Positions 1,255 through 39,620 of a stretch of 50,695 bases of DNA are shown one piece after another. The notes beneath the pieces are model-generated. The model made no database searches. It was given only the letters and a program-made list of their open reading frames with translations, and had not been told where the DNA came from. A program made the position numbers and the translations under genes. Numbering within the stretch: the first letter of the stretch is position 1; each line of letters opens with the position of its first letter. The DNA is from a virus, in IMG/VR virus record IMGVR_UViG_3300025115_000247, positions 1-50,695 of that record. The stretch is one strand, 5' to 3'.

Positions 1255-1476
1255 CTAAGTTGTTGATTTTAAATGATATTTGTTAAATGCTCTGCGAACA
1301 ACATATGATCGTGCAAGAGATATAACAGTAAAGTACAATCCTATGAGTAGATTGTCAGTGAATGGGACCTGGATGTTAAACAACGGAAACACCAACAGTT
1401 GACTAAGGATTGCTACCACATAGCCAATGAAGATGTTTACCGTTGATTCTAAGAATGAATGAAACTCAGATTGCAT
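1255..1476 (-). CDS. small two-helix membrane protein, DUF7220-like
   Basis: 73 residues with a short polar N-terminus (SFLESTVN), two hydrophobic segments near residues 14-33 and 38-56 (VVAILSQLLVFPLF; LLIGLYFTVISLA), and a conserved-looking SYVVRRAFN tail. This pattern matches the small phage membrane family DUF7220, recalled from family knowledge and not searched. The start overlaps the end of the acyltransferase gene, so it is probably co-translated as the last gene of the desaturase operon. Likely inserted in the host inner membrane; role unknown. Confidence 0.75.
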   Translation of the reverse strand: MQSEFHSFLESTVNIFIGYVVAILSQLLVFPLFNIQVPFTDNLLIGLYFTVISLARSYVVRRAFNKYHLKSTT

Positions 1477-2194
1477 CGTTGTTGATTATAGGAACAAGAC
1501 GGTGCGAAACACGACGTGGCAATTTACTAGTATTTAACACTACTGAATTCGGTTCGATGTCTGTCATTATGCATAATCCGGGAGCTAAAATCGAATTCTC
1601 TCCAATGGTGAGAGCACTATTATTGTCTTTAGTGACATTTTGAATAATCATAGTCCCAGGACCAACTACTACACCATTTTCGATAGTAGTGTAAGTATTA
1701 ATAAATGATTGAACTCCGATGTATACATTTTTTCCTATAGTCGAGTTAGTGTGCACTGTGGCGCGAGGCAGTACGAACGTATAATCACCGATTGTTGCCC
1801 TGTGTACCATAGCTCCAGCATCAATGAATACACCTTTTCCAATGGCTGACTTGTGAACGTGTGCGAGTTTAGAGATTAACGTGACTATATTAACTTTTGA
1901 TCGTTCGAGTACATCTATAGTGCGTGATCTTTCTTTATTTACCATTTCACTATTGCTAATATCTTCGTGAAATGTAACAATCGGAAAAAAATCAGCAGAT
2001 TGTTTGAGTTTGGTGATCCACGCATCATTATTTAACAGATCATCAATTTTCCCTAATACTCTAACACCGTCTACTGTTTCCCCTTTTCCGTACTTGTTAG
2101 ATAACAGCCCTATTACTGTGTAGCCATTTTCGATAGCAGCATCTAATATAGAAAAAATAGGAGTTTTATACCCGACTAAGATCAGCTTTTTCAT
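1466..2194 (-). CDS. PglD-like sugar O/N-acyltransferase (left-handed beta-helix)
   Basis: 242 residues. The N-terminal half resembles the Rossmann-like domain of PglD/NeuD proteins (MKKLILVGYK, then GVRVLGKIDDLL). The C-terminal half from about residue 110 shows hexapeptide-repeat spacing: AIGKGVFIDAGAMVHRATIG, TIGKNVYIGV, TIENGVVVGPG. Such enzymes transfer acetyl groups from acetyl-CoA to nucleotide sugars. Its start overlaps the desaturase gene by 29 bases, so the two are translationally coupled. It may modify surface glycans; the substrate cannot be read from sequence. Confidence 0.85.
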   Translation of the reverse strand: MKKLILVGYKTPIFSILDAAIENGYTVIGLLSNKYGKGETVDGVRVLGKIDDLLNNDAWITKLKQSADFFPIVTFHEDISNSEMVNKERSRTIDVLERSKVNIVTLISKLAHVHKSAIGKGVFIDAGAMVHRATIGDYTFVLPRATVHTNSTIGKNVYIGVQSFINTYTTIENGVVVGPGTMIIQNVTKDNNSALTIGENSILAPGLCIMTDIEPNSVVLNTSKLPRRVSHRLVPIINNDAI

Positions 2195-2984
2195 TTATTA
2201 TGTTTTTTCCAATGAGTTTAATTATGTGATATCCGGGATCAAATTCCCACCATTTAAAACCAAAATTGCATGATCGGGGGTTAGCGTGGTGATTGTTGTG
2301 CCATTCTCCGCCAGATATGTAACCAATGAATAGATTGTTAGTTGATGTATCAGCACACTCGAAATTTCGATATCCGGTAGAATGTGATAGTGTGTTTACA
2401 CCGTTAAGTGTCCAGTAACAAATTAACCCTGGGAGTAAATAAAACGCTATACAGATCAGTGGGTCAATTAAAAATAAAAGTCCACCGTACACTAATTGTA
2501 TTTTAAAGTAGTGATCTACTGTAAACCTATGTAACTTCGAATGGTAAAGATCCCTGACATTACTTAATTTAGGTAAAATCCAGTAAGATAAAAAATGTAC
2601 TCTGATAGCATCGGTGATGTTTAAGCATCGATGCGGGTCTTGCTCTTCATCAACGAATTGATGGTGTTTTCGGTGAATCGATACCCACGTAATCGACGAG
2701 CTAACTAACGCGGTAGTAGTAATAAACAAGAAAATGTATTCAAAAATCTGTGACTTAAACTCGAATAATTTGTGCGATAAATATCGATGGAAATAAAGAA
2801 CAATACTAGTAGTGTTTATATACCCAACAATAAATGGCACTAATAATAGATACCATGGGGCATTTGTGATAAAGTACGGGATTGACAGGTATCCCACTAA
2901 GTGAATAAGTTGCAATTTCCATGCATACGAGTTTTTAAACGATAATCCGTATGTGAGTTTCTGAGTTAATGTCATTGATGTCAT
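2166..2984 (-). CDS. membrane fatty acid desaturase (Delta9-like)
   Basis: 272 residues with the three histidine boxes of membrane acyl desaturases: HRYLSH (66-71), HRKHH (104-108) and HNNHH (229-233), plus N-x3-LSHSTGYR before the last box. Several hydrophobic spans flank them. These di-iron enzymes introduce double bonds into acyl-CoA or acyl-lipid chains in the membrane. AAGGA eight bases upstream supports the first ATG over a second in-frame ATG. It is one of two different desaturases in this operon. Known as an oddity in some aquatic phages; the exact substrate is unknown. Confidence 0.92.
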   Translation of the reverse strand: MTSMTLTQKLTYGLSFKNSYAWKLQLIHLVGYLSIPYFITNAPWYLLLVPFIVGYINTTSIVLYFHRYLSHKLFEFKSQIFEYIFLFITTTALVSSSITWVSIHRKHHQFVDEEQDPHRCLNITDAIRVHFLSYWILPKLSNVRDLYHSKLHRFTVDHYFKIQLVYGGLLFLIDPLICIAFYLLPGLICYWTLNGVNTLSHSTGYRNFECADTSTNNLFIGYISGGEWHNNHHANPRSCNFGFKWWEFDPGYHIIKLIGKNIINEKADLSRV

Positions 2985-3058
2985 TGATGTGTTCCTTGGG
3001 TGAAATACTAATTATTAGTTTGTGGGTCGATCTTAAATAACGTTAGTTATGTTAACAG

Positions 3059-3706
3059 CTAAATGTACACTTCAACAATTAAATGGAATCGATGAGTGTC
3101 TGCGTTATTGTCTACTCCGTGCGGAATTCCGATATTTAACCACCATGCCGCGCCATCAGCTTCGAAATGTTGGCGAATTTCTCTTTTATCTTTAATCCAT
3201 TTAAATTCGCTATCGGGCGAAGTAAGTATAGGGATATGCACTTTAGATATCTTAGCAGTGTCGAAATCGATGTGATATTTTAATTCAGTATGAGGATCTA
3301 GACGTGCCAGGTATGCTTTGTCTATTTTTGTATATTGCGCTTTTATTCGATTAATTACCTGCTCAATGTATGTACCCTTGAAGGTATCTTTTACCTCTTG
3401 TTTAAAAATTTGTGTATGGTAAATGTTTTTCATATTGTGCTCCGGAAAATCAAATTGATCGTTAAATCGGAGTATGTACAAATTAGAATAGGTAGAGAAG
3501 TCAAACCATTTAGAATACTTTTCTCTTTTTTGAGTTTGTATATAGTGCAACATTTTCTGGTCTTCTGCACTATTTGAAAAGTTTAACTGGTCAAAGTTTA
3601 AGCTAGGATCAAGGTATCCTCTAATAGAAAACTCGTTACGTAATTTATCAATGTCGAATTGTTCTATTTTAGTATATAATGGTAAAGTTTTTCTAGATTG
3701 AGTCAT
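3059..3706 (-). CDS. aspartyl/asparaginyl beta-hydroxylase-like 2-oxoglutarate oxygenase
   Basis: 215 residues. The C-terminal half has the double-stranded beta-helix pattern of the Asp/Asn hydroxylase family: RLDPHTELKYHIDFD with H145-x-D147, then GAAWWLNIGIPHGVDN with H196, then RFHLIVEV with R206 as candidate 2-oxoglutarate ligand. These enzymes hydroxylate protein side chains or small molecules using Fe(II). The gene sits between the two desaturases with only 3 bases to its upstream neighbour, so it is in the same operon. Whether it acts on lipids, glycans or protein cannot be decided. Confidence 0.75.
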   Translation of the reverse strand: MTQSRKTLPLYTKIEQFDIDKLRNEFSIRGYLDPSLNFDQLNFSNSAEDQKMLHYIQTQKREKYSKWFDFSTYSNLYILRFNDQFDFPEHNMKNIYHTQIFKQEVKDTFKGTYIEQVINRIKAQYTKIDKAYLARLDPHTELKYHIDFDTAKISKVHIPILTSPDSEFKWIKDKREIRQHFEADGAAWWLNIGIPHGVDNNADTHRFHLIVEVYI

Positions 3707-3709
3707 AAG

Positions 3710-4474
3710 TTAATTTTGTTTAACAGCAAAAACTGTATCGATGATAGCCCCTAGTATATCAACCTCTTGTTCTGTAACTTTGTTAGTATAGCTGGTTTGA
3801 TTTGCGTGGTGGTTGTGATGCAGCTCGCCGCCGAGTAAAATGTATTTCCATGCCCCTCCCAGGTTTGCGGAGCAGTCAGTTAAGTCAAAATTACGATAAC
3901 CGAATTTTGGATACAAATGGGTCAGAACATCTACTACTGCGTTAGTGTACAAAGTGAGGACTATCGGTAATGCTACTATATATCCATACAGTTTTATGTT
4001 ATTAGTTACAACTGCAACGAACAAAAGTAAAAAATGGAACAAGAAGTAATTGTTATGTTGAAACATAATCATTTTGTCTTTAGCAAGTCGGACTACATAT
4101 TTGGGGTTAATGTTAATCGGATCAACCCAATATACTACTTTCCATATGCTTTTAGTTTGGGGAGAATGCGGGTCAAGTTCCTGGTCTGAATATTTATGAT
4201 GTTGAGAATGAACACCGCACCAAGCAAGCAGAGATCCTTCGCCATTAAACCACTGGAGTATCATTAATAATATTTCTTTAGGTCTTGTAGTTTTAAAACT
4301 TCGATGCACAAAGTATCTATGTGCTCCGATTTCACCTCCGATTAGTTTAACTAAAAACCAAGATATGTAGGTCCCAAGTAACCAGATTGGATCAAAAAAC
4401 ATAATAAGAACATATATTGATATTAAGTGTGTGGTGATTTGCAACAAATGAAATTTATTGTTAAAAGTTAACAT
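3710..4474 (-). CDS. second membrane fatty acid desaturase
   Basis: 254 residues with histidine boxes HRYFVH (52-57), HSQHH (89-93) and HHNHH (219-223), and hydrophobic segments at about 12-42 and 143-185. It differs considerably from the other desaturase, for example the GGEIGAHRYF and LLGGELHHNHHANQ contexts, so this is not a recent duplication. Two desaturases of different specificity would allow altered position or number of double bonds in host lipids during infection. The ATG has only a weak upstream ribosome site. Confidence 0.9.
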   Translation of the reverse strand: MLTFNNKFHLLQITTHLISIYVLIMFFDPIWLLGTYISWFLVKLIGGEIGAHRYFVHRSFKTTRPKEILLMILQWFNGEGSLLAWCGVHSQHHKYSDQELDPHSPQTKSIWKVVYWVDPININPKYVVRLAKDKMIMFQHNNYFLFHFLLLFVAVVTNNIKLYGYIVALPIVLTLYTNAVVDVLTHLYPKFGYRNFDLTDCSANLGGAWKYILLGGELHHNHHANQTSYTNKVTEQEVDILGAIIDTVFAVKQN

Positions 4475-4771: not shown

Positions 4772-4957
4772 TTAGTCGGTGCTTGCTGATGGCTTATACC
4801 AACCAGATCCTTTTAACTGGAATCCGCCAGGTGCAGATAGTTTCTTGTTTGCCATAGCACCACAGTTGGGGCAACTAATTTGCACAGTATTCATTGGTAC
4901 GATTTTTTCGAATACCTTTTCGCAGTGTACACATTTAAACTCGTAAAGCGGTGGCAT
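4772..4957 (-). CDS. FmdB-family zinc ribbon protein
   Basis: 61 residues: MPPLYEFKCVHCEKVFEKI, then CPNCG, then GGFQLKGSGWYKPS. This is the FmdB (CxxC-CxxC) small zinc-ribbon family, usually of bacterial origin and of uncertain, possibly regulatory, function. It lies between a terminator hairpin upstream (the porin terminator) and another downstream. The GGFQLKGSGWY motif matches bacterial members closely, suggesting transfer from a host. Confidence 0.88.
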   Translation of the reverse strand: MPPLYEFKCVHCEKVFEKIVPMNTVQISCPNCGAMANKKLSAPGGFQLKGSGWYKPSASTD

Positions 4958-4971
4958 ATCTATTCTCTATA

Positions 4972-4999
4972 AAAAGGCTATATTTAAGTATAGCCTTTT
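4972..4999 (-). terminator. intrinsic terminator of the porin gene
   Basis: An 11-bp perfect stem AAAAGGCTATA / TATAGCCTTTT with a 6-base loop lies just past the porin stop codon. On the minus strand the stem is followed by further T and A. Its U-rich 3' arm makes it a good rho-independent terminator. With the late promoter at 6102-6109 it makes the porin a self-contained transcription unit. Confidence 0.8.
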
Positions 5000-5019: not shown

Positions 5020-6075
5020 TTAGAATGAATGCTTTAGACCTGCGCCAAAACCTGACGAAGTCATGCTGCCGGTGCCAAGCGGTGTAACACCGTTAGTTGC
5101 ACCCATTGCGACGTTTGTTGCGCCGTTTTTGTTAGAAACACGAGTGTAACCTGCATAAGCAGAAGTACGCTTGCTAAAGTCATAGTTAGCCTGAATACCC
5201 CATGAATCAGCATCTGCATTAGCTGCGGTCTTGTCGTCTAAACGAGCAAAACCAACATCAACACCAATCTTGTTGCTAACTGCAAATTGTGCGCCAACCG
5301 ATGCGATATCCTTGTTGGTTGAACGATCGTTTGCTACGTCGGTCTGGTATGAACCAGCAAGAGTAACAGTTGGGGCGATTGCATATTTTGCACCAACCAT
5401 GTGTTCAACATTGTCTCGGCCTGCAATACGTGTAACATCATTTACTTTGTGGTAAACGTAACCAACTGAGAATGGCCCAGCAGTGTAGTCAGCCATTAAG
5501 CCGATAACACGTTCTTGTTTTGTACCATTACCGTATGATGTGTTAGCAAGTGTGGTGTCAGTTGAGTGAGTTGCCCCGAAAGTGAAACCGCCTGCAACAA
5601 CTGGTGAAACATAAGCAACTGTATTTCCTGCACGGCTAGAAGTGTTAATAGTTGTGCCTTTTAATGCAGTTAGCGGAGCAAAGTTGCTACCACGTAATGC
5701 ATCGAACTTATCAAGCTCTGCTTTACCAAGTGTAGCCATGTAACCGAGTTTTACTGCACCAAGTGACTTAGAAGTTAACCCAAGTGACTGTTCACGTGCG
5801 GTTGTGATACCGGTATTGGTGTTTGGTGTAATACCGTACTCAACTGTAAAACCAGCTGATAGATCGCTATCAAGAGCTTCTGTTCCGCGGAAGCCAAGGC
5901 GGCTTGGTGCATATAAGCTACCTAAACCAGTTTTGGTGTTGATACCGTCTGTACGGTCAGCAGTTGCACGAGCCATACCCATATCAACAACACCGTAGAT
6001 TGCTACATTTGATTGTGCTAACGCTACTGTAGAAGTAGTGGCAGCGATTGCTAAAGCGATTAAGCTTTTCTTCAT
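5020..6075 (-). CDS. full-length Gram-negative (betaproteobacterial-type) outer-membrane porin
   Basis: 351 residues. It has a signal peptide MKKSLIALAIAATTSTVALA cleaved before QSNVAIYGVVDMG, repeated amphipathic beta-strands, and ends in LKHSF with the terminal phenylalanine needed for BAM recognition. The N-terminal YGVVD and the RLGFRG(T)E motif fit Burkholderiales general porins (Gram-negative porin family, trimeric 16-strand barrels). AAGGAGAT sits just before the ATG, below a TATAAATA late promoter, and a strong terminator follows. A phage-borne porin would be exported to the host outer membrane, perhaps replacing the phage receptor to block superinfection, or changing nutrient uptake. 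Confidence 0.95.
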   Translation of the reverse strand: MKKSLIALAIAATTSTVALAQSNVAIYGVVDMGMARATADRTDGINTKTGLGSLYAPSRLGFRGTEALDSDLSAGFTVEYGITPNTNTGITTAREQSLGLTSKSLGAVKLGYMATLGKAELDKFDALRGSNFAPLTALKGTTINTSSRAGNTVAYVSPVVAGGFTFGATHSTDTTLANTSYGNGTKQERVIGLMADYTAGPFSVGYVYHKVNDVTRIAGRDNVEHMVGAKYAIAPTVTLAGSYQTDVANDRSTNKDIASVGAQFAVSNKIGVDVGFARLDDKTAANADADSWGIQANYDFSKRTSAYAGYTRVSNKNGATNVAMGATNGVTPLGTGSMTSSGFGAGLKHSF

Positions 6076-6101
6076 ATTATCTCCTTAAGATGTGTAAAGT
6101 T

Positions 6102-6109
6102 TATTTATA
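6102..6109 (-). promoter_or_regulatory. T4-type late promoter of the porin
   Basis: TATAAATA on the minus strand, identical to the T4 late consensus, placed 27 bases upstream of the porin ATG. It implies porin expression late in infection under the phage's own sigma factor. Confidence 0.7.
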
Positions 6110-7159
6110 CTACTTAATACCTTGGTATCTGGTATTATTGAGAGTCTCAAGCATGATACTAATCGGAGTTAGTGTTTCTGCCGATAGTACGCTCTGCATA
6201 ATTGCAGGGCTGAAGCCGCTGATTAATGCAGTTCCTTGTTCATCGTAACGAACAGGAACCTTGCTTCCTCGAGACTGAATATTCCAGAATACAATATTTG
6301 GCATAGAGTATCCCGCATCAGCATATTTCTTTTGAACCATAGTAAGTGCATCAAATCCTTCAACACAAGCGTCGAACTCCATATCCGAAAGGATAAGAAT
6401 ATACTTTGGCATTTGTGCTTCTGGGACTTGGTGCTTTACTGCTACACGCAAGATTTCCTTGAATGCAGACTCGATGTTGGTGCTCATACCCCATTCCGCA
6501 TCAGACAATTGGTTGTATCGGTCACGCAACGAGCCTTTTAGGACTTGGAATTGCGAGTTGCTGCTAAAAGTGAGGAACATGTCCTTGAATGCCCCTTTGT
6601 TCTTTTCGGAAAGGTACAGACCAAGAGACACTGCAACATCGAGGCAGGTTACGGTTGGATTGTTGCCAACAACACAATCCATAGACCCAGATACGTCAAC
6701 TACTGGGATGATTGCATCATCACCGATGTAGTTAGGCAAAGTATCCCATTGTGCTTGTTGTACAGCAGCATTTTCACCCTTGCAATCAAACCGCATTGAC
6801 TTAACGATGTCATATGGGTATACAGCACTTGCATTGATAGTGGTTTCGCCACTTGCTAATGCAGACTTGTACGCAGAATATCCGGTTGCGTCGTGCTTGT
6901 TGAATGCTTTTTGGTAACGTGCAGCCGCAACAGAAGGAACATGCTCATACTTAATGTTAGTCCAGTCGTTAGCACACATTTGGGTTTCAACAACCTTAGT
7001 TAGTGTAACTAATGTCTTGCGGTAGCCCTTTGGTGTTAATCCCATAAAGGCACGAAGCTCGTTTGCAAGGGTTCCTTTACGAGGCATCCACTTACAGGCT
7101 AAAGAAGCGGAACCTACTTGTTGTGTTAACAGATTCTTAAGTTTCATTTTTGCAGACAT
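6110..7159 (-). CDS. DUF2828/VWA protein, C-terminal piece of a split gene
   Basis: 349 residues from ATG at 7159, which has GGAG six bases upstream; a longer frame to 7189 lacks a ribosome site. The DUF2828 signature ASLACKWMPRKG lies near residue 18 and LTPKGYRKTL near 41. The VWA metal site DVSGSMD (about 155-161) and later the LILSDMEFD strand are present. The N-terminal part of the protein is encoded at 7921-8409, on the far side of an endonuclease gene. The first 14 residues are probably new sequence created by the insertion. Likely partner of the MoxR ATPase. Confidence 0.88.
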   Translation of the reverse strand: MSAKMKLKNLLTQQVGSASLACKWMPRKGTLANELRAFMGLTPKGYRKTLVTLTKVVETQMCANDWTNIKYEHVPSVAAARYQKAFNKHDATGYSAYKSALASGETTINASAVYPYDIVKSMRFDCKGENAAVQQAQWDTLPNYIGDDAIIPVVDVSGSMDCVVGNNPTVTCLDVAVSLGLYLSEKNKGAFKDMFLTFSSNSQFQVLKGSLRDRYNQLSDAEWGMSTNIESAFKEILRVAVKHQVPEAQMPKYILILSDMEFDACVEGFDALTMVQKKYADAGYSMPNIVFWNIQSRGSKVPVRYDEQGTALISGFSPAIMQSVLSAETLTPISIMLETLNNTRYQGIK

Positions 7160-7219
7160 AGTGATCTCCAGTTTTCGCGGCATCGACATAAATAATAATA
7201 TATTTAGTAGATTACTGCA

Positions 7220-7993
7220 ATGGTTATAACAAATTTAATTTTTCGAAACAAGTATTCTAAATGGTACTTAGCACTCTGTGAAGTTGCTAGCCGCAGGGCC
7301 AACACACGGAAAGAAGCTAGTGCTAAGTTAAATTGTAAAGTTGAAGCGCATCACGTATTACCAAAATCGATTTTTCCAAATAAAAATATAGTGTATCTAA
7401 CTTTGCGAGAACATTTTGTTGCTCATAGACTTTTAACAAAAATGTTTATATCTGAGCAGCATAAGCAAAAAATGTTAAAGGCACTAGCATCATTTATGCT
7501 GAAATCTATTAATGCACGACAGTTTGAAGTTTCACGGATAGCAAACAGTCAAAAAATACCATGGAACAAAGGCCTGTCCGGAAGAAAAACCGGACCTTGC
7601 TCAGTCGAAAGAGCTAATAAGATTAGCGACTCTCGAAAAAAGACAAGTAAACAAGAATGCATCCATTGTAAAAAATTAATCGATCCAGGAAATTACAAAT
7701 TGTATCACGGCGATAATTGTAAACTAAATCCTAATATCGATCTTGAACTTCTAAGGTTACGGTCCGAATCTAAAAAAATTGCAGCTATTAAATCTATAGT
7801 AAACGGAAATCATAAATTTAAGTCTCCTAATAGTTACGGGGTTTTACAGTGTCCGCACTGTGGGAAAACAGGAATCAACTTACCAAACATGAAACGATTC
7901 CATTTTGATAGATGTAAAAGTTATTCGATCTCGGATAGTAGTTTCTCTGCATCTGATTCGGACATCGAATCTATTGTCGAAAGAAGTTGTTGA
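7220..7993 (+). CDS. HNH homing endonuclease inserted in the DUF2828 gene
   Basis: 257 residues, opposite in strand to its host gene. KYSKWYLALCEVA and EAHHVLPKSIF then HFVAHRLLTKM form an HNH nuclease core of the type common in T4-like phages. The C-terminal part has two CxxC...H...C zinc ribbons (CIHCKKLI...YHGDNCK; CPHCGKTG...FDRCK) that probably bind DNA. Its 3' end reaches into the DUF2828 N-terminal frame. A CATAAATA late-promoter-like octamer lies upstream near 7187. The insert is too short to hold a group I intron core as well. Confidence 0.9.
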   Translation: MVITNLIFRNKYSKWYLALCEVASRRANTRKEASAKLNCKVEAHHVLPKSIFPNKNIVYLTLREHFVAHRLLTKMFISEQHKQKMLKALASFMLKSINARQFEVSRIANSQKIPWNKGLSGRKTGPCSVERANKISDSRKKTSKQECIHCKKLIDPGNYKLYHGDNCKLNPNIDLELLRLRSESKKIAAIKSIVNGNHKFKSPNSYGVLQCPHCGKTGINLPNMKRFHFDRCKSYSISDSSFSASDSDIESIVERSC

Positions 7994-8409
7994 GCTCTCT
8001 CGCCCTTTTTAAGTGCATCCTTGATTAAAGAGAACGCTTCGGCTTTTGCGGCCTTAGAGGTAAAGACTAACAGGTCGTCCCAGCGACCATAAACCGGAAT
8101 AAGCGGGATCATCTGAGTTAGTTCAGATGGGTGGTTGATTTCGAGGTACTGAAGAAGATCACGAACAAGTTGGCGCTCACCTGCACCGCCACGAACGTCG
8201 CGAAGCCATGCAAAGTTACGCATTGCGAGTTGGCGATTTTCTTGGTAAGCACGTTCGAATAGATCTTCGATCTTTTGTCCACGCTTTGCAGCGGCAGTAA
8301 AGAAGAAGTCGACGTTAGCGTTGAGGCTCGACGTGTAAGTTAACATTCCGTTCTCAGTGACAGTTTCGGTTTGTGTGTTCTTGACTGCGTCTACAAAAGT
8401 TGTGTTCAT
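7921..8409 (-). CDS. DUF2828/VWA protein, N-terminal piece of a split gene
   Basis: 162 residues. The first about 140 match the DUF2828 (TROVE-like, helical) N-terminus: FERAYQENRQLAMRNFAWLRDVRGGAGERQLVRDL and YGRWDDLLVF. After KKGERAQQ the frame runs into the antisense of the endonuclease gene and ends after LLSTIDSMSESDAEKLLSEIE, which is probably insert-derived. Joining ERAQQ here to VGSASLACKWMPRKG of the downstream piece restores a normal-looking protein. AAGGAGAAAACATG gives a strong start at 8409. Confidence 0.87.
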   Translation of the reverse strand: MNTTFVDAVKNTQTETVTENGMLTYTSSLNANVDFFFTAAAKRGQKIEDLFERAYQENRQLAMRNFAWLRDVRGGAGERQLVRDLLQYLEINHPSELTQMIPLIPVYGRWDDLLVFTSKAAKAEAFSLIKDALKKGERAQQLLSTIDSMSESDAEKLLSEIE

Positions 8410-14266: not shown

Positions 14267-14341
14267 TGGCCTGGCTACCAGGAATCGAACCTGGGATATC
14301 GGCTTAGAAGGCCGAGGTTATATCCGCTTAACTATAGCCAG
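14267..14341 (-). tRNA. tRNA-Arg (anticodon UCU), CCA encoded
   Basis: 75 bases with acceptor CTGGCTA/TAGCCAG, D arm GTT...AAC, anticodon stem TCGGC/GCCGA with loop CTTCTAA, T arm CCAGG-TTCGATT-CCTGG, discriminator G and genomic CCA. Reads AGA codons, which are common in this AT-rich genome. Confidence 0.93.
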
Positions 14342-14348
14342 GTAACTC

Positions 14349-14423
14349 TGGTAGGAGCGGTGGGATTCGAACCCACGACCAACGGATTAAAAGTCCGCTG
14401 CGCTACCACTGCGCCACACTCCC
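14349..14423 (-). tRNA. tRNA-Lys (anticodon UUU), CCA encoded
   Basis: Acceptor GGGAGTG/CGCTCCT, anticodon stem GCGGA/TCCGT with loop CTTTTAA, T arm GTGGG-TTCGAAT-CCCAC and genomic CCA. Second in the three-tRNA operon. Confidence 0.93.
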
Positions 14424-14430
14424 AAAATCT

Positions 14431-14507
14431 TGGTGCCCCCGACAGGACTTGAACCTGTGACCCAGCGATTATGAGTCGCTCGCTCTGACCAACTGAGCTA
14501 CAGGGGC
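14431..14507 (-). tRNA. tRNA with CAU anticodon (Met or Ile2), CCA encoded
   Basis: 77 bases with acceptor GCCCCTG/CGGGGGC, D arm GTAGCTCAGTTGGTCAGAGC, anticodon loop CTCATAA, T arm ACAGG-TTCAAGT-CCTGT and genomic CCA. CAU may read AUG, or AUA if the C is lysidinylated; the sequence alone does not decide. First gene after the tRNA promoter. Confidence 0.92.
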
Positions 14508-22820: not shown

Positions 22821-23610
22821 ACTCTGTTAGTCTATCAATAATCATGTTTGCATACATTTTATTCGAGATAACTCCGGGGTGTACTTGGTCACTGTTAGTA
22901 TCGCATTGTAAACTTTTCATTGATTGATATAAGTTGATCCATTTGTTGCAGGTGACCCCACCTGCAACAGCAATATTGTTATGCATTTTCTGATATAATT
23001 TTATAATCTCTTCGTCGTCTCGGTTTTCGGTATTTAGTTGATGTTGCGTGTATAATGTCATTTCGTTCGGTGTTGTGATCGTTGCATTGTATTTAAAGAA
23101 GTCTTTGTCCCAGGGACACAATCCGTTTATAAACCACACATTAACTTTTAGTGAAGAAGACAAATTTTCTAAAATTTTAGAAAACTTGATTATCTTAGTT
23201 ATTTCGTAAAGTGGGTGTATTAGAGAAATAAATCGGTCTTTGACAGAATTTAAATATTCTTTAGAATATAATACATCGTTTAGTTGGACGTCAAGCGAAA
23301 TCGGCGAATGCGAGGCGTGAAGTCTGGTGCTATATAATTCAAAACCAAGCTCTGTGTTTATTCTCGGCACACCAGTCCATTCTACAAAAACATTGCTAAT
23401 ATTTTTATGTAGCAGTAATTGATTAACAGTTTCGATAAAAATTTCTTCGTTTGCACCGCCAGGAATTCCTGCATTTACTTTAACTGCGTTGCTAAAACAA
23501 TGATTATGTAATAAGTTGACCCAAAGGTATTTTTCTTTTTCTTCTTCGGTAAACCCAGTTCCGTTAGTGTAAGAACATCCGGTGTAAATTACTGTTTCAT
23601 TACGTCCCAA
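22804..23610 (-). CDS. SGNH-hydrolase-like protein (2 of 3)
   Basis: 268 residues. IYTGCSYTNGTGFTEEEK holds the block I Ser, NAGIPGGANEEIF a block II Gly, and SDQVHPGVISNKMYANMI the C-terminal D-x2-H pair. Between them is a divergent helical region. Starts within the 3' end of QueE. Substrate unknown; not close to the copy at 21.3 kb. Confidence 0.72.
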   Translation of the reverse strand: MGRNETVIYTGCSYTNGTGFTEEEKEKYLWVNLLHNHCFSNAVKVNAGIPGGANEEIFIETVNQLLLHKNISNVFVEWTGVPRINTELGFELYSTRLHASHSPISLDVQLNDVLYSKEYLNSVKDRFISLIHPLYEITKIIKFSKILENLSSSLKVNVWFINGLCPWDKDFFKYNATITTPNEMTLYTQHQLNTENRDDEEIIKLYQKMHNNIAVAGGVTCNKWINLYQSMKSLQCDTNSDQVHPGVISNKMYANMIIDRLTEYEERI

Positions 23611-24505
23611 TTCCGTTCCCCCAGATGTGCGAGTGTAATCTACCAGAAAAATGATATCCTTCTGCTATAGCTCGGTTAGCGATTTCTGCCATATACCCCG
23701 GTTCCTCTTGCTGTTCCCTTGTGCTACCGCATGGCATAATATAAATCGGAATATCTAAATCTGACAATTCTTTAACATGTTGATTTAGTTCGTTCCAACA
23801 CTCGTCTTTACTATTTACAACAAACTTTAAGCAACCTTTGTTAGACAATGTAAAATACTCTCTAATAATATCGTATTTAACTGCATCTTGTTCGCCGCTT
23901 ACATTAAATAGTTTTGGCGAGACATTCCAGTTTAACGAAAACGCATTTTGTAAATAGAATTCTTTAAATTCCTCTACTAAAGGTTTTGTTCCGTTTGTTT
24001 CAATTTGAACAGTTTCAGGATAATCTAATCCCGGAATTAAATTTCCTTTATCTTTTCGCCAACAATCTACATTAGCTTCTTTTAAAATACTAACGATAGC
24101 TTTTTGTTGCATCAACGGCTCGCCGCCAGTGAAACACAAGTCAATTTCGTTTTTAGTTATCGGATGTCGCCATTTGTTATTATAGAGCAACGGTGATATC
24201 TCGTTAAACAATGTTGTTGACTTTGCGTAATCGATTGCTAAGTGTTTAAAATTAGGGTGCCAACTATACCCGGAATCACATCCTGTTGTTAAAATAGGCA
24301 CATCTGACAGATTTTTGTAAATCTTGCCGTTGTTTAACACTTCTGGCACTGTCCAAGTCGATTGGTCGGTTGGGTCTTTCTGATAAAACCCCTCACATTT
24401 CAGATTGCACCCAAAAAAACGAACCCAGATACTTAATACACCTGTCCTGTTACCTTCACCTTGAACTGACCTAAAAATCGGCTCACCTAATCTGATTTTG
24501 CTCAT
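23600..24505 (-). CDS. queE: 7-carboxy-7-deazaguanine synthase QueE
   Basis: Start at ATG 24505 (MSKIRLGEPIFRSVQGEG), overlapping the upstream stop. 301 residues: VRFFGCNLKCEGF gives C33 and C37, and the third cluster cysteine is probably C76 in TTGCDSGYSW after an insertion, as in other phage QueE forms. FTGGEPLMQQ, ETNGTKP, NWNVSPKLF and KFVVNSKDE are radical SAM/QueE motifs. It converts 6-carboxytetrahydropterin to CDG in the deazaguanine pathway. QueD and FolE are encoded nearby; QueC is not in the window. Confidence 0.93.
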   Translation of the reverse strand: MSKIRLGEPIFRSVQGEGNRTGVLSIWVRFFGCNLKCEGFYQKDPTDQSTWTVPEVLNNGKIYKNLSDVPILTTGCDSGYSWHPNFKHLAIDYAKSTTLFNEISPLLYNNKWRHPITKNEIDLCFTGGEPLMQQKAIVSILKEANVDCWRKDKGNLIPGLDYPETVQIETNGTKPLVEEFKEFYLQNAFSLNWNVSPKLFNVSGEQDAVKYDIIREYFTLSNKGCLKFVVNSKDECWNELNQHVKELSDLDIPIYIMPCGSTREQQEEPGYMAEIANRAIAEGYHFSGRLHSHIWGNGIGT

Positions 24506-24723
24506 TTTAGAATTTTTCCTATTTGTTTTTCGATATCGTCGATCCAACGCCATTGTGCTCTGGTTAGGTGCGGGTCACTGCTAATAAATCGAGAAAGAGA
24601 ATCACTAACTTCTTTAAGTTTAAACATACTATCTACAATATCTTTTTGTTTAAACTTCTCCACTTCTGCTTGATAAGCGCGATCTTCTTCCTCTTCGCGC
24701 CAGGCCTTAATTCCGCATCCCAT
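24502..24723 (-). CDS. hypothetical protein, 73 aa
   Basis: MGCGIKAWREEEEDRAYQAE then a helical, charged remainder (LKEVSDSLSRFISS, RWIDDIEKQIGKILK). The MGCG start could be a zinc or lipid-attachment-like site but no signal peptide is present. ATGA overlap with QueE and 2 bases from QueD, so part of the deazaguanine operon. Confidence 0.62.
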   Translation of the reverse strand: MGCGIKAWREEEEDRAYQAEVEKFKQKDIVDSMFKLKEVSDSLSRFISSDPHLTRAQWRWIDDIEKQIGKILK

Positions 24724-24725
24724 AA

Positions 24726-25334
24726 TTACCCCTTATAGATAGAACGAGACTTTGGTGTTTCATTCCACCAAATTTCTTTAGTCTTAACTCCCATTTTGCT
24801 CATCTTTGCGTCGACAAGCTCGTACACCCATCTCGACAACATTTCGGAAGTCGGAACAAAGTTGACTATGAAGAAGCCCTCGAGTGTTTCGTATTCTGGG
24901 GTGTCGTATTTAACGTGTGACATATTAATGCTGTATCCAGCAACCTTATCTGTTCCAGGTACAACTACTGGCACTAAACAGTTATCGATGAACCACTTCG
25001 AATCCATGTTGTTGTACTCAAAGTTCACGCTTTGTGCGTACAGTTCGATGACTAACTTGCGAAACATCGGATCGTTAGAGTCAACGATAAACTTGTGATC
25101 AACAGTATCGTCGATGAACGTTTTAAACCAACCAAGTTCTTTAAAGTCTACTACCATGCCGCGATCGTCTAGCTCGTCTGCTTCGAGGAATACTTTAAGT
25201 GACCCTTCGTGCCCGTGTAAGTGACGGCACTTACAAGCAGTGTCACCCTTCTCTGTATATTCCGGGTTAAGGCGCTGCACCCAAACACGGTGCCCGTAAC
25301 AAAAACTAAATTCTTTATCGATTGTCCAAGTCAT
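24726..25334 (-). CDS. queD: 6-carboxy-5,6,7,8-tetrahydropterin synthase QueD
   Basis: 202 residues of the PTPS/T-fold family. Zinc ligands H15 (CYGHRVW), H40 and H42 with catalytic C36 (CKCRHLHGHEG). VDFKELGWFKTFIDDTVDHK follows and EIWWNETPKS is the late Glu region. Longer than E. coli QueD (about 120 aa) because of inserts. It forms CPH4 from dihydroneopterin triphosphate made by FolE. A hairpin at 25344-25366 pairs part of its ribosome site. Confidence 0.92.
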   Translation of the reverse strand: MTWTIDKEFSFCYGHRVWVQRLNPEYTEKGDTACKCRHLHGHEGSLKVFLEADELDDRGMVVDFKELGWFKTFIDDTVDHKFIVDSNDPMFRKLVIELYAQSVNFEYNNMDSKWFIDNCLVPVVVPGTDKVAGYSINMSHVKYDTPEYETLEGFFIVNFVPTSEMLSRWVYELVDAKMSKMGVKTKEIWWNETPKSRSIYKG

Positions 25335-25343
25335 GCTTTATCT

Positions 25344-25366
25344 CCTATGTTAAATGTTAGCATAGG
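25344..25366 (-). promoter_or_regulatory. hairpin overlapping the QueD ribosome-binding site
   Basis: CCTATG (25344-25349) pairs with CATAGG (25361-25366), loop of 11. On the minus strand the second arm includes the first bases of AGGAG, the Shine-Dalgarno of queD. It could limit translation. It does not match a preQ1 riboswitch that I recognise. Confidence 0.4.
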
Positions 25367-25411
25367 TGGCAGAATTTTTAAAGAGGGATGACACCAAAAG
25401 TCCTCTTGTTG

Positions 25412-25828
25412 TTATTTAGGCTGCTGATAGTTTGCTGATTTATAATTACCTTGTCCTGGAATAACATTACGAACGCCTCCAACAGGATCTTCACAGTCGC
25501 CAGTTTTGCGAGGGATAAGATGGATATGTGGCCACGGCACTGTTTGTCCAGCGGCAGTACCAAAGTTCATTCCGATATTAAAGGCTTCCCATTCGCCAGC
25601 TGCTACCTTTTTTAATCCCTCTGCCAATGCATCAGCAAAGCAGTGTTCGATTACTCCTACAGTGGCAAACTGTGGAACAAATAATAGATGTCCCTCAGAT
25701 ACAGGGTATGCGTCTTTAAAAACTGCAACATGGAAATCTTCACTAACAAGATCAGTCCACGGGGCTTTTCCTTCTTTATGGGCATCATCTAAACTATCGG
25801 GTAAATTTTCTAATTGTCTATTGTTCAT
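25412..25828 (-). CDS. HIT-family hydrolase
   Basis: Start at ATG 25828 (MNNRQLENLPDSLDDAHK) after GGTGAG. The HIT core is VPWPHIHLIPRKTGDCEDPV, with the last two histidines of HxHxH but Trp-Pro where the first His usually lies, a variation I recall in some bacterial HIT proteins; DFHVAVFKDAYPVSEGHLLF is the typical N-terminal strand pair. HIT enzymes cleave nucleoside phosphoramidates or dinucleoside polyphosphates. Its role beside the deazaguanine genes is unknown. Confidence 0.85.
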   Translation of the reverse strand: MNNRQLENLPDSLDDAHKEGKAPWTDLVSEDFHVAVFKDAYPVSEGHLLFVPQFATVGVIEHCFADALAEGLKKVAAGEWEAFNIGMNFGTAAGQTVPWPHIHLIPRKTGDCEDPVGGVRNVIPGQGNYKSANYQQPK

Positions 25829-25835
25829 TTTTTTC

Positions 25836-26027
25836 TCACCAGTCAGATACATCGGTTATATCGTGTTCTATTCCGTTAATCGTAGCGTAGGTGCTTCGTC
25901 CGATTCCACTAGCACTGTCTTGTCGTAACAGTATTTGAGTATGGATACTCGGAGCACATAGGGATATGATTGACGCTAACTTTAACGCTTCACTTCCAGT
26001 TAACGTAAATGTGTTTACTGTTTCCAA
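25836..26027 (-). CDS. hypothetical protein, about 63 aa
   Basis: The frame ends GIGRSTYATINGIEHDITDV plus SDW and contains EALKLASIISLCAPSIHTQI. No ATG fits; a TTG at 26027 after GGGAAG is the best start, and the frame opens with TTG at 26054. Both lie in the 3' end of the phosphoribosyltransferase gene. Unrecognised. Confidence 0.5.
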   Translation of the reverse strand: METVNTFTLTGSEALKLASIISLCAPSIHTQILLRQDSASGIGRSTYATINGIEHDITDVSDW

Positions 26028-26518
26028 AATTCTTCCCAGGGAAATGTGATCCAATCATCGCAGTTGTCTGCGGCGATCTCTTCAGACACATACGTTACAT
26101 TAAGAACAGATTTGCTTGTTGGTTTTTCAAATAACACTGCGGTCCTAATACCTTTATGCCATGGTAACTCAGTCTTTCCAATGGATGAGTTCCAATCCTT
26201 GTAGATCCAGTTAAGGGTTGCACCCGAGTCATTGATGTCGTCGACGATAAGAACCTGGCACCCGTTAGATGCATCTTCTGGAAGCCAACAATTGACTTCG
26301 GGTCCTGAAGTCCACGGGTAATCAGTATTGTCACGTAATGTCACGTCTAACCCAACCATCTTACAGTTAAAGTATTGACTAAGCATTATTGCTGGAATCG
26401 CACCACCTCGTGCCACTCCGACAATAATATCGGGTTTCCATTGGCTAAGAGCAATTTGTCTTGCGATCTCTTGTACGTGGCCAGTTAGCTCTTGCCAACT
26501 TACATATCGCTTTTTCAT
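26015..26518 (-). CDS. phosphoribosyltransferase (purine PRTase type)
   Basis: 167 residues. VLIVDDINDSGATL is the PRPP-binding loop and IIVGVARGGAIPAIMLSQYF the N-terminal Gly loop. HPRT/XGPRT-like enzymes join PRPP to a purine-type base. In this neighbourhood it could salvage guanine, or handle a deazaguanine base; the second is speculation. ATGA overlap with the upstream gene. Confidence 0.88.
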   Translation of the reverse strand: MKKRYVSWQELTGHVQEIARQIALSQWKPDIIVGVARGGAIPAIMLSQYFNCKMVGLDVTLRDNTDYPWTSGPEVNCWLPEDASNGCQVLIVDDINDSGATLNWIYKDWNSSIGKTELPWHKGIRTAVLFEKPTSKSVLNVTYVSEEIAADNCDDWITFPWEEFWKQ

Positions 26519-26727
26519 AGTTTGCTCCCTAGTAATTCCCTGAGGTTAGAACGTGCGTCATCTGTCAGATATGTTTCAAACTTGTTTTGTGGAGCCCCTG
26601 GGTCTTTGGCTTCAGTCCACACACTAGTAAACTTTAACTGAGTAAGGTTACCTACTTTGTGCAATTCTGCATAGAGTTGGTAACTACTTCCTGGTGCTTC
26701 GTTAGTTTGTAGAATAAGTTTTTTCAT
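26515..26727 (-). CDS. hypothetical protein, 70 aa
   Basis: MKKLILQTNEAPGSSYQLYA, LTQLKFTSVWTEAKDPGAPQ, then ETYLTDDARSNLREL. The pattern resembles a small beta-sheet plus helix phage protein. Sits with no gap between FolE and the phosphoribosyltransferase. Not recognised. Confidence 0.62.
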   Translation of the reverse strand: MKKLILQTNEAPGSSYQLYAELHKVGNLTQLKFTSVWTEAKDPGAPQNKFETYLTDDARSNLRELLGSKL

Positions 26728-27411
26728 TTAGTCTCTCTTGCAGGAATTAACAATGTTCATAAACTCTAAGCGAACTGACGGATCCGATTTAAAACAACCA
26801 CCTAGTTTGCTAGTAACTGTACTAGATCCAACGTCTTCTACTCCCCTACTGCGAACGCAAAAATGTTGTGCATTAACCACAACTCCGATGTTGTCTGTGT
26901 TGAGAATGTATTGTAATGCGTGGTAAATTTGCTCAGTTAACCGTTCTTGAATCTGTGGCCGTTTGCTAAAGTACTCGACCACACGATTAATTTTAGACAA
27001 GCCAAGTACTTTGTTGTTTGGGATATAACCAACAGTTGCAACACCGTCGATCACAACAAAGTGATGCTCGCAGTTACTTTGCACATTTACATTGCGCTCA
27101 ATAACCATTTCGTCGTACTTCATCTTGTTATCTACAGTTGTGCACTTTGGGAATGCTTCGTAGTCAAGGCCCCAAAAAATTTCGTTGACAGCCATTTTTG
27201 CCCAACGTTTAGGTGTTTCGGTTAAACTGTCGTCGTCTAGATCTAACCCAAGCGCCTCCATGATCGCAGTAAAGTGGTGCTCGATTTTATCAATCTTCTC
27301 TTTACGGTCTAGATGATTGTGTTTTGTGGGCGTTTCTACGCCGCATTTAACTAAGTGTTGGTGAATTTGTTGACCCAATTCAGGGTCGCATTTTGTCTTG
27401 TTATATGACAT
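26728..27411 (-). CDS. folE: GTP cyclohydrolase I FolE
   Basis: 227 residues. SNCEHHFVVIDG and QHFCVRSRGVEDVGSSTVTS carry the zinc ligands, and LGLSKINRVVEYFSKRPQIQ with ERLTEQI is the signature helix. It converts GTP to dihydroneopterin triphosphate, the first step of the deazaguanine route completed by QueD and QueE here. AAGGAAGG precedes the ATG. Normal length for type IA enzymes. Confidence 0.95.
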   Translation of the reverse strand: MSYNKTKCDPELGQQIHQHLVKCGVETPTKHNHLDRKEKIDKIEHHFTAIMEALGLDLDDDSLTETPKRWAKMAVNEIFWGLDYEAFPKCTTVDNKMKYDEMVIERNVNVQSNCEHHFVVIDGVATVGYIPNNKVLGLSKINRVVEYFSKRPQIQERLTEQIYHALQYILNTDNIGVVVNAQHFCVRSRGVEDVGSSTVTSKLGGCFKSDPSVRLEFMNIVNSCKRD

Positions 27412-36015: not shown

Positions 36016-37035
36016 TTATTCAAAGGCAAACAAGCTATCGAAATTAGTTTTAATCTGAGTATTGTTCGCAATGTCCCAGTTCAAAACACCTAGCAGGTTT
36101 TCTGCTTTCTTATCAACAATTGTTGTTTCCATCAGATCGTCGTCAAACGGTAAGTTCTTAAACCAATCGGGTATATGTAGAATATCAGTTGGGTATGCTA
36201 CTGATGTAAGGCCTAACGGATTCTCTTTTAGTTTACATACAATAACTTTCATACCATCAAGGATTTTCATAGAGTGCATATCTTTATACATATCTTTAAG
36301 GTGGTTGTAGTTGATAGCAGCTCGAACATGACCTGGCATGTTTGCTTTCCCTAGACGTTCTTCTTTAGTGCGGTATCTAGTTAAGTTATTAACTCGCTTT
36401 GGTGTACCTTTTTCCCATGGTTGCAGTTCCTTAAAGTAATACTTGAACTCTTTAATCTTAGCAAAAATATCTTCTTTGTGGGTGCCGGTTAACACGTCTT
36501 GTAGCACATTAATCAGAAAGTCTTGCACAATCTTAGGTGTATCTGCACGTTTTAAGTCTAGACCCATAGCTTTTAGCTTGCCTAACCCTGGTATTACACC
36601 TTTTTTCTTAGCCTTTTCTTCATCATACAAGTCAAGTCGATCACCTTCCATATCATAGATAAGAACTGCATAGCGTTTTTTCTTAATATACAGTCCGGTT
36701 GATGCAATAAGTTCTCGCCCACCTTTAATTAGTGCACCATGTTCAAGTGTAGCATGACATGCTTGCTGCATGAATGCAGGGAATGACTCGTTGACTTGGT
36801 CAGCAATGCTGTCATATACACTGATGCAAATATCTTTGTCCCATTCTTGTTTGCCTGCTTTAACATCGTCTTTAATAATAGGCCATACACTAAAGTAACA
36901 AGAGTCAGTGTTATGTACCAAACAATCATTAGCAAAAAAGTACGGATCTCGGTCCTTAATACTTAAGTCATACACATAATCATCTACTTCACCTATACAT
37001 TCGATGCTTTTTATTGTAACTGATTCGATATCCAT
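36016..37035 (-). CDS. gp43: DNA polymerase gp43 C-terminal part fused to an intein C-half
   Basis: 339 residues. Residues 1-42 are an intein C-terminal half: YVYDLSIKDRDPYFFANDCL then VHN, splicing before T43. The extein begins TDSCYFSVWPII, completing the polymerase motif YGD-TDS with the half at 37991-38716. KKKRYAVLIYDMEG is motif KKRY. The protein ends FDSLFAFE, like the clamp-binding tail of T4 gp43. Trans-splicing is needed to rebuild the active site. Confidence 0.93.
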   Translation of the reverse strand: MDIESVTIKSIECIGEVDDYVYDLSIKDRDPYFFANDCLVHNTDSCYFSVWPIIKDDVKAGKQEWDKDICISVYDSIADQVNESFPAFMQQACHATLEHGALIKGGRELIASTGLYIKKKRYAVLIYDMEGDRLDLYDEEKAKKKGVIPGLGKLKAMGLDLKRADTPKIVQDFLINVLQDVLTGTHKEDIFAKIKEFKYYFKELQPWEKGTPKRVNNLTRYRTKEERLGKANMPGHVRAAINYNHLKDMYKDMHSMKILDGMKVIVCKLKENPLGLTSVAYPTDILHIPDWFKNLPFDDDLMETTIVDKKAENLLGVLNWDIANNTQIKTNFDSLFAFE

Positions 37036-37967
37036 TCTTTTACCTCAACAATAGTACGTTGCTTGTCTTTTTTAAAGTCTGTTTCCCACACAACTAACAC
37101 TTTAAATCCTAGTTCCTCAGCAGTTTTTAATTTTAACATATCTTTTTGCTGTATATCTATTGCTAACTTCCCACGTATAACTGCATCGGATTTGTATATA
37201 GCAGGATTTGCATGCCAGTAGTCTCCATTAAATTCTATTATTAAATTTTTATGTTTTATGTCATACACAACATATGAATTTAGTAATGATGACCATTTTC
37301 CAAACGGTTGAGAGTAATTAGTGTACTCGAGTTTATATCCTATTGCTTCTTCTAAGAGTAGTACAAATTCTTTTTCTAGTTCACTTACGTAAGAAAGACG
37401 TTGTCTTGATACAATCAATTCTACTGCTTCATCGAGAGAAATGGATAATTTTTTAGCAATTGCAATAGGTGACCCTGATTCTCCTTTTTTGATACATATT
37501 TCTTTAAATTTTTTTTCTCCTACTTGTTTTCCATATTTTGTGATTAAGTATTCTTTGGACTTAGTGTATGATTGTTTAGCACAATATTCATTCCACATCT
37601 CTAAACCTTTTCCTTCGCCGTGTCTTAAAATCATTATTTCTAACGTTTGGCTTCTTGAACGATTAAACTGGTTGTATTGTTCTTCGCTCCACCCATGCTT
37701 TTCTTTTTTGTACTCAAAAGAATTTGATATAGCTTGTTTTGTTCGATACTGTTCCCAGCGAGCATTTCCTTCTTGTTCTCCGTATTTCTTAATTAAGTTT
37801 TGTAAGGTTACTGCTGTTGCTTGTGCAAGGATAGGGTCAACTAATGTTGCTCCTGGGTATGCTTGTTTATATTCTTTTCCGTTTTTAAATTTTCCTGTAC
37901 AGTTGTATTTAAAATGAGTCCATTGTAATCGGGGTAACTCTGCCCCGCACTCTAAGCATTTTGGCAT
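37011..37967 (-). CDS. Vsr-like homing endonuclease between the intein halves
   Basis: 318 residues. N-terminal CLECGAELPRLQWTHFKYNC is a zinc-type module. The middle repeats (KYGEQEGNARWEQY, KYGKQVGEKKFKE) probably bind DNA. The C-terminal nuclease VYDIKHKNLIIEFNGDYWHA and KLKTAEELGFKVLVVWETDF matches the very-short-patch-repair-like family found in fractured genes with split inteins. AGGAG nine bases upstream; it overlaps the downstream intein half by 25 bases. Confidence 0.87.
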   Translation of the reverse strand: MPKCLECGAELPRLQWTHFKYNCTGKFKNGKEYKQAYPGATLVDPILAQATAVTLQNLIKKYGEQEGNARWEQYRTKQAISNSFEYKKEKHGWSEEQYNQFNRSRSQTLEIMILRHGEGKGLEMWNEYCAKQSYTKSKEYLITKYGKQVGEKKFKEICIKKGESGSPIAIAKKLSISLDEAVELIVSRQRLSYVSELEKEFVLLLEEAIGYKLEYTNYSQPFGKWSSLLNSYVVYDIKHKNLIIEFNGDYWHANPAIYKSDAVIRGKLAIDIQQKDMLKLKTAEELGFKVLVVWETDFKKDKQRTIVEVKEWISNQLQ

Positions 37968-37990
37968 ACGGTGATACTCCTGTCTCCATA

Positions 37991-38716
37991 TTATTTATCC
38001 AGCAGCGAGATAAACACATCGGTTTCTAGAACTTGCAACGGAGTAACTTCTACTAATGTTCCGTTCCTTAACGCAATAAGGCTATGGTCTTCAGTAACTG
38101 TTACGGTTTTATCATTAGAGAAAGTTATTTTATATAACTTTTTCTTAGTTTTGTGCCTCATAACATACGAAACTTCACTCATAACTGGTTTTAGTTCGTT
38201 ACCGTCGAACCCAATTACTTTTGTATCAATGCCTCCTCTGTACTCTTTTCCTGACGGCGATAGAGTGGTATGTTGACACTGATTAAATAATTCTTCTATG
38301 GTCACTTCGCCGTCGTTTGTTTTAATACGGGTGTCGCCGGTTACACTGTCACCGTACACAATAGCTTCACCGGTATGGTCGTAAATACCTGTTACTGCTT
38401 GATTAATGTAAGCGTCCATATGGCGTGCAATTAAACGCCCAGTTAATGTAGTAGACTGCCCGATACGCTGGTCAAAGAAACGGCAACCTGCGTTCAACAG
38501 TGCACCATAAAGGCTATTCAAATTAATCTTGGTTACAAGTTGTTTTTTATCCCAATACTCTATAGCATTTTTTACTTCGGTGAAATTATTTGGTATAACT
38601 TTACCGTCTTTAATTCGCAGTGAATTTTCTTTGCAAAATTGATCAAGTTCTTCTTTTGATCCAGTCTCGAATATTTGTGTTAGACGATCGAAATCGAGAT
38701 CTCGTAGTTCTGACAT
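37991..38716 (-). CDS. gp43: DNA polymerase gp43 middle part fused to an intein N-half
   Basis: 241 residues. The extein VTKINLNSLYGALLNAG (motif B region) and RLIARHMDAYIN lead to EAIVYGD at 117-123. The intein N-half starts at S124: SVTGDTRIKTNDGEVTIEEL (block A), TVTVTEDHSLIALRNG (block B), 118 residues, no endonuclease domain. It must splice in trans with the half at 36016-37035. Its first residues overlap the upstream endonuclease gene, so its ATG may be a product of that insertion. Confidence 0.93.
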   Translation of the reverse strand: MSELRDLDFDRLTQIFETGSKEELDQFCKENSLRIKDGKVIPNNFTEVKNAIEYWDKKQLVTKINLNSLYGALLNAGCRFFDQRIGQSTTLTGRLIARHMDAYINQAVTGIYDHTGEAIVYGDSVTGDTRIKTNDGEVTIEELFNQCQHTTLSPSGKEYRGGIDTKVIGFDGNELKPVMSEVSYVMRHKTKKKLYKITFSNDKTVTVTEDHSLIALRNGTLVEVTPLQVLETDVFISLLDK

Positions 38717-39573
38717 TCTTTTGTCCTTGAATTTAAAATTTGATGATTGTGTTTTTGTATTAAATTATAATCGGTTTCGAATACTAACTCCGGAACCCAA
38801 TTAGTGTGAGTAATTCTTAAAAGTTTTAGTTTATGGTCTTTTGCGATACTATGCTTTTCTAAATCGTTTCTAATTGCAGCAGGGAATCGATGCCAGTATT
38901 CTCCGTCGACTTCTACTAGCAAATTTAGTGTTTGCAGATAAAAATCGTAATATTTACCATCTAGTGGATACTGATAAATGTATTGTATACTATTTGCATC
39001 CAGAAATTCAATAAACTGTTTCTCTATATTTGTTTTCTTTCCTCTCTTTGGGAGGACGATACCGTGCTCTTTTATATAATCACGTCTTCTAGTAGATAAC
39101 AGTTCTATATACTTAGAGAATTGTTTACTGTCTTCTCTTCGTGTTTCCCAATTGGCTTTTTGTTTTTCGGACTTAGCTTGTTTGCTTTTGTCTGACAGAT
39201 TTACAGGCTTTCCGATCTTTTGTTTACTTAAAAGTTGTTTAGTTTGCTCAGTATGTGGCTCGCGAGTCTTTCCGGTGTGTGAGGCAGACATCTTTTTCTT
39301 TGTTTCGTCTGAATGTACAAACGAATTGCCTTTTCGGTCTCGCATCAGTTGGCAGGTTTTATTCCTGATAGCGCGATAGTTTTCAGAATCTGATTCTTTA
39401 AGACTCTTGTGCATAGATTTAGCTCTCTCGGAAAACTGTGCAGATAACTCAGTTGAGACAATCTGTGCACCCGGATACGTTTTGGTATACATCTCTTTTG
39501 TAACTTTGTGTTTAAAATTTATGTGACTTGTTAGGTTTCTAAACTCTTTTTGACATATTAAACATGTTACCAT
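38680..39573 (-). CDS. Vsr-like homing endonuclease splitting the polymerase gene
   Basis: 297 residues. CLICQKEFRNLTSHINFKHK is an N-terminal zinc-finger-like module (ROS/MUCR-like, with YPGAQIV also present in the other Vsr-like enzyme here). NUMOD3-like repeats (DETKKKMSASHTGK, EQTKQLLSKQKIGK) follow, and the nuclease is LDGKYYDFYLQTLNLLVEVD, GEYWHR and KLKLLRITHTNWVPE. It has its own late promoter and AAGGAAG ribosome site. Confidence 0.87.
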   Translation of the reverse strand: MVTCLICQKEFRNLTSHINFKHKVTKEMYTKTYPGAQIVSTELSAQFSERAKSMHKSLKESDSENYRAIRNKTCQLMRDRKGNSFVHSDETKKKMSASHTGKTREPHTEQTKQLLSKQKIGKPVNLSDKSKQAKSEKQKANWETRREDSKQFSKYIELLSTRRRDYIKEHGIVLPKRGKKTNIEKQFIEFLDANSIQYIYQYPLDGKYYDFYLQTLNLLVEVDGEYWHRFPAAIRNDLEKHSIAKDHKLKLLRITHTNWVPELVFETDYNLIQKHNHQILNSRTKECQNYEISISIV

Positions 39574-39590
39574 GTTACTTCCTTTTATGT

Positions 39591-39598: not shown

Positions 39599-39620
39599 CC
39601 TACTTAACAAAATTAAGGTA

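Follow-up and report, generated by a model that had tools for sequence, protein, structure and literature searches.

A porin gene with a late-type promoter on a T4-like phage contig and related porin genes in other environmental phages

The analyzed window spans an entire IMG/VR virus record (50,695 bases) and carries on its minus strand a complete and intact phage-borne porin gene. Our preferred explanation, to which we assign a probability of about one half, is that a jumbo T4-like phage of a betaproteobacterium acquired an anion porin gene of host type, now kept as a one-gene late cassette altering the permeability of the outer membrane. The gene would be transcribed late, and its product would be exported by Sec and inserted by the host BAM machinery into the infected cell's outer membrane, where it would form trimers and change the permeability. 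In our view, the likeliest benefit would be an influx of solutes (anions) in a long infection once the synthesis of host porins has stopped, the main rival to this benefit being the masking or dilution of a surface receptor. The porin gene, its putative signals, and its neighbors are listed in Table 1.

Table 1. Features of the porin locus and the adjacent part of the window
Feature	Position	Strand	Remarks
Hexapeptide acyl/acetyltransferase, NeuD/PglB/VioB-like	1466..2194	-	below the curated cut-off
Second fatty-acid-desaturase-like protein	2166..2984	-	His boxes present
Asp/Arg beta-hydroxylase family protein (PF05118)	3059..3706	-	
Fatty acid desaturase	3710..4474	-	carries three His boxes; may be a membrane-lipid partner
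61-aa protein with two CxxC motifs (zinc-ribbon-like)	4772..4957	-	downstream neighbor; unclassified by search
Hairpin, 11 bp, T-rich 3' arm	4972..4999	-	likely terminator of the porin transcript
Porin gene, Porin_4/Omp32-type	5020..6075	-	351 aa, ATG start; 16-strand barrel, signal peptide, C-terminal Phe
Signal peptide	6016..6075	-	residues 1-20, cleavage after ALA; read from sequence; helix 3-13 in the model
Shine-Dalgarno sequence AAGGAGA	6079..6086	-	before the porin ATG; read from sequence
T4-type late promoter octamer TATAAATA	6102..6109	-	26 nt before the porin ATG; abuts the Ro stop codon
Ro/TROVE-like RNA-binding protein (DUF2828/DUF7788), C-terminal part	6110..7189	-	phage gene; upstream neighbor

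The only Pfam match reported for the porin protein is the PF13609 family (Porin_4), aligned over profile positions 1-309 of 310 with an E-value of 1.2e-44 and a score of 153.8 bits against the curated cut-off of 27, while a PHROG search with the same protein matched no family. Its signal peptide reads MKKSLIALAIAATTSTVALA, with Q as the first residue after the cleavage point. The AlphaFold2 model, based on 42 homologues (pLDDT 86, pTM 0.83), contains a barrel of 16 strands, the L3 helix (residues 116-124), and a last strand (residues 339-350) that ends beside the C-terminal Phe of the terminus ...KHSF; this residue, Phe351, is aligned in all six sequences of the porin alignment. The closest solved folds are those of Omp32 (2fgq and 1e54), with TM 0.78-0.81 by query; 8wv0, a Burkholderia porin, is also among the best matches. 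Four charged constriction residues of Omp32, R38, E58, R75, and R133, are all kept in the alignment as R59, E79, R94, and R148. Thus the whole-length Pfam match, the barrel model, the Omp32 fold, and the kept constriction residues identify a complete porin, which is probably anion-selective, given its likeness to Omp32. The kept pore residues favor a working channel.

The cassette is compact: read along the minus strand, the stop codon of the Ro-like gene (6110-6112) is followed by the octamer, the Shine-Dalgarno sequence, the ATG (6075), the porin stop codon (5020-5022), and the hairpin. In the whole window the octamer occurs at ten sites versus 4.4 expected, a mild enrichment that was reached in one of 100 shuffles. 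Just upstream of minus-strand ORFs it is found in 5 cases out of 57, versus a shuffle mean of 0.42, and none of 500 shuffles was as high. Some of the sites have no ORF start close behind them, and these were counted against the preferred explanation. From the promoter motif we infer that the porin is transcribed late. The hairpin, AAAAGGCTATA-CTTAAA-TATAGCCTTTT, has 11 pairs, but it is AT-rich, has a weak free T tail, is only moderately stable (z -1.5; 18 out of 200 shuffles did equally well), and is absent from the list produced by a terminator scanner; for these reasons we regard it as a likely rather than a certain terminator. The earlier note had described a complete outer-membrane porin with intact signal peptide, barrel strands, and terminal Phe, and this description is borne out by the full-length Porin_4 match, the reading of the sequence, and the predicted 16-strand barrel. 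Its view of a phage-controlled cassette also agrees with the compact order of promoter motif, gene, and hairpin; as for its claim of an own late promoter and terminator, the octamer is in place and the 11-bp hairpin is present, with late transcription and the terminator role left at the level of likelihood.

The surrounding genes point to a T4-like phage, probably a large one. The best identities of the Ro-like protein are 57% in other viral contigs and 49% in isolated T4-like phages, and for the family-B DNA polymerase part the best matches come from PA5oct-type jumbo phages (approximately 50% identity). Relatives by the exonuclease (62-67%) lie on records of up to 357 kb, with relatives of 220-357 kb among them, the window record itself being 50.7 kb. 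Besides the exonuclease, the window encodes QueD, QueE, GTP cyclohydrolase, and three tRNAs, namely the consecutive genes for Arg(tct), Lys(ttt), and Met(cat) at 14267-14507. The cluster of QueE, QueD, and GTP cyclohydrolase genes (23600-27411) suggests 7-deazaguanine modification of the phage DNA. Two genes are interrupted. The Ro/DUF2828 gene (6110-8409) is divided into two parts (7921-8409 and 6110-7189), and a homing-endonuclease ORF on the opposite strand (7220-7993) separates them; an Rfam search matched no intron at this split, the tRNAs being its sole matches in the window. The family-B DNA polymerase (36016-40964) is split over 39621-40964, 37991-38716, and 36016-37035, with other ORFs between, and the corresponding ORF of a relative, L113, is longer and uninterrupted. 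Downstream of the porin, in the 2166-4474 region, two fatty acid desaturase genes flank the Asp/Arg-hydroxylase-family gene, a lipid-related set unusual in a phage. Assignment of the latter gene as the lipid A hydroxylase LpxO was rejected, as the family match is only to the broad PF05118 and solved structures match weakly. A constant association of the porin with the desaturase pair was likewise rejected: desaturases are found near two porins (in L097 and L109) but also in seven porin-free relatives, and are therefore not linked to the porin.

A search with the porin alignment found a homologue on 30 further IMG/VR contigs, each having exactly one Porin_4 match above the cut-off. Seven of these contigs encode the large terminase, the T4-type major capsid protein, or both, and in L118 the porin is located shortly behind the capsid gene; the phage status of the others is that of the IMG/VR classification. 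By shared genes, the porin contigs fall into at least four groups and some singletons, the group of the window comprising L090, L091-L095, L098, L107, L108, L110, and L113. The genomic position of the porin differs even within this group. In L090 and L113 it sits between the genes for GTP cyclohydrolase and QueD, and in L091-L095 it lies behind a homologue of the window segment 14552-14917; the window has no porin at either of these sites. A shared arrangement of the porin beside Ro was rejected, as it was seen at none of 80 Ro loci in relatives. Because only one of 32 large relatives (records of 30-372 kb, related by the exonuclease or Ro) has a porin, this gene is a patchy accessory one among them, and its rarity was counted against the preferred explanation.

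Transcription signals of a similar kind accompany the other phage porins. Terminator-like hairpins occur at most 70 nt downstream of 19 out of 25 distinct phage porins versus 8.8% of other ORFs from the same loci, and TAAATA is present at most 80 nt upstream of 13 out of 24 phage porins versus 20% of other ORFs. The dN/dS values among close phage porins are mostly 0.08-0.18, reaching 0.27 in L114/L116, which are nearly identical, and such low values indicate that close phage porins are kept for function. In nine contigs (L094, L095, L103, L106, L107, L110, and L114-L116) the porin is preceded by a short, possibly mRNA-stabilizing hairpin between TAAATA and the ribosome-binding site, whose sequence varies at a nearly constant position, TAAATA being 45-48 nt before the ATG; the window porin is without one. 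The idea that such a leader hairpin is a general feature of late genes was rejected, none being seen before the capsid genes examined.

Among bacterial porins, those of betaproteobacteria are nearest (35-41% identity), and in the tree the window porin groups with Azonexus-type porins (97/98), on a long branch and apart from the other phage porins. The candidate single origin of all phage porins is supported by no bootstrap tree, though on a smaller set it is not rejected by the AU test (p 0.28). Several separate captures, that of the window porin included, are favored by these data but not proven, because the AU test does not reject one origin and the window branch is long. L113 from the window's group and L101 from another group have 93% DNA identity from approximately codon 16 of the porin ORF to its stop, and the compared stretches share nothing outside this ORF, which points to an exchange between unrelated phages or to a shared, unsampled host from which both acquired the gene recently. 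With slightly less than even confidence, we suggest that large T4-like phages of Betaproteobacteria maintain a pool of mobile single-gene porin cassettes, each with promoter, porin, and terminator, which would have been taken from hosts more than once, swapped across unrelated lineages, and used for late rebuilding of the outer membrane. Judging by its porin, the host of the window phage is betaproteobacterial, so that the porin does point to the host group, as the earlier note had expected, at about the level of class; the porin phylogeny does not name the host more finely.

The possibility that a bacterial porin gene was misjoined to phage DNA by assembly or host contamination is extremely unlikely. 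The GC content of the porin is above the window mean (45% versus 40%), as might be expected of such a chimera, but the 34-bp junction between the porin and the Ro-like gene contains a phage-type late promoter, and the GC3 of the porin (0.32) is within the range of the phage neighbors (mostly 0.25-0.42) rather than that of related bacterial porins (0.64-0.85). Further, the nearest bacterial porin found is only about 41% identical, leaving no close homologue, and the cassettes recur in the 30 other viral contigs, including records of 192-337 kb. It is also quite improbable that the porin is a recently acquired and decaying passenger without benefit: its rare and patchy occurrence would fit, whereas the intact frame, the own signals, the phage-like third positions, and the strong purifying selection seen on porins of other phage lineages would not. 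Close relatives of the window phage itself, in which presence and dN/dS could be compared, were not found.

Among the possible functions, superinfection exclusion or a decoy role, in which the host porin serving as receptor would be replaced, diluted, or hidden by that of the phage, or the latter would occupy the tail fibers of sister phages on infected cells and debris, is a serious though rather unlikely candidate. Porins are frequent receptors of tailed phages (PMC8594841), T5 is an established case of exclusion through alteration of an outer-membrane receptor (PMC9586334), and the genes lc and nmpC of lambdoid phages encode outer-membrane porins, according to a reference cited in PMC11677980. 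Moreover, the position of the third constriction Arg is occupied by D, F, Y, or V in several other phage porins; such variation is expected if the surface matters and not the pore, makes one common uptake role or substrate class doubtful, and was counted against the preferred explanation. However, exclusion proteins are often early (PMC9586334), whereas the promoter of the window porin is late-type. By our own reasoning, a lytic T4-like phage would be short of time to replace a stable and abundant porin, and the close relatives of the L090/L101 type show few differences (dN/dS approximately 0.08-0.11) and no obvious fast-changing loops. Replacement of the host porin that blocks re-infection, proposed in the earlier note by analogy with the lambdoid Lc, is not supported in that form: it is weakened by the late-type promoter, and the protein belongs to Porin_4, not to the enterobacterial family of Lc and NmpC. 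The Lc protein acts in lysogens, the lambdoid setting being that of a temperate phage and lysogenic conversion. An improbable further role is destabilization of the outer membrane, by which late overproduction of the porin would aid lysis in the manner of an auxiliary spanin; the late-type promoter and the neighbors that may alter membrane lipids are consistent with it, but the constriction has retained the residues of ordinary diffusion porins. Accessory neighbors that may act on membrane lipids were also counted in favor of the preferred explanation of altered outer-membrane permeability, as was the published viral porin beside an ammonium transporter (PMC8115048).

Until now, lambdoid prophages were the main known source of phage porins. 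Such porins are now seen on about thirty contigs, representing four or more groups of large phages from the environment, at different genomic sites and with their own transcription signals, and so these viruses seem to have repeatedly acquired means to change the cell surface. If the porins work, these phages set the outer-membrane permeability or the receptor make-up of the infected cell, with consequences for how nutrients flow during infection and for which phages can co-infect. The phage porins also form a natural, conserved test set to separate uptake from exclusion. A comparison with 50,697 public phage records yielded no full-length porin homologue and a single short partial match in one faecal record, and porins are not mentioned in the large surveys of huge phages consulted in the open literature. 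Thus the lambdoid lc and nmpC genes, the viral OmpL, and two entries from uncultured phages are known precedents, and the recurrent porin cassette of jumbo phages is new.

The window porin shares with Omp32 and the porins of Comamonas, Burkholderia, and Neisseria the 16-strand barrel, the L3 helix, the R/E/R/R constriction, the signal peptide, and the C-terminal Phe, but differs from these bacterial proteins in being phage-borne, in having a phage-type late promoter, and in its identity of only 35-41%. Lc and NmpC of PA-2 and its relatives are also encoded by outer-membrane porin genes carried by phages. However, they belong to an enterobacterial porin family and to temperate lambdoid phages, whereas the window protein is Porin_4 by Pfam, has betaproteobacterial nearest relatives, and is encoded under a late-type promoter in a T4-like phage that is probably a jumbo phage. 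The T5 protein Llp and similar receptor-blocking lipoproteins are likewise phage proteins that alter an outer-membrane receptor, but Llp is a small lipoprotein made early and is not a barrel. The closest viral protein folds are A0A6J5L4P1 and A0A6J5LP82, annotated as "OmpC outer membrane protein (porin)" in uncultured Caudovirales phages; these are known from database annotation alone, no study of them having been found. Finally, the viral OmpL of marine contigs is another virus-encoded porin of environmental origin, but it is of Bacteroidota type and adjoins the ammonium-uptake genes amtB/glnK (PMC8115048), whereas the window porin forms a single-gene cassette of betaproteobacterial type.
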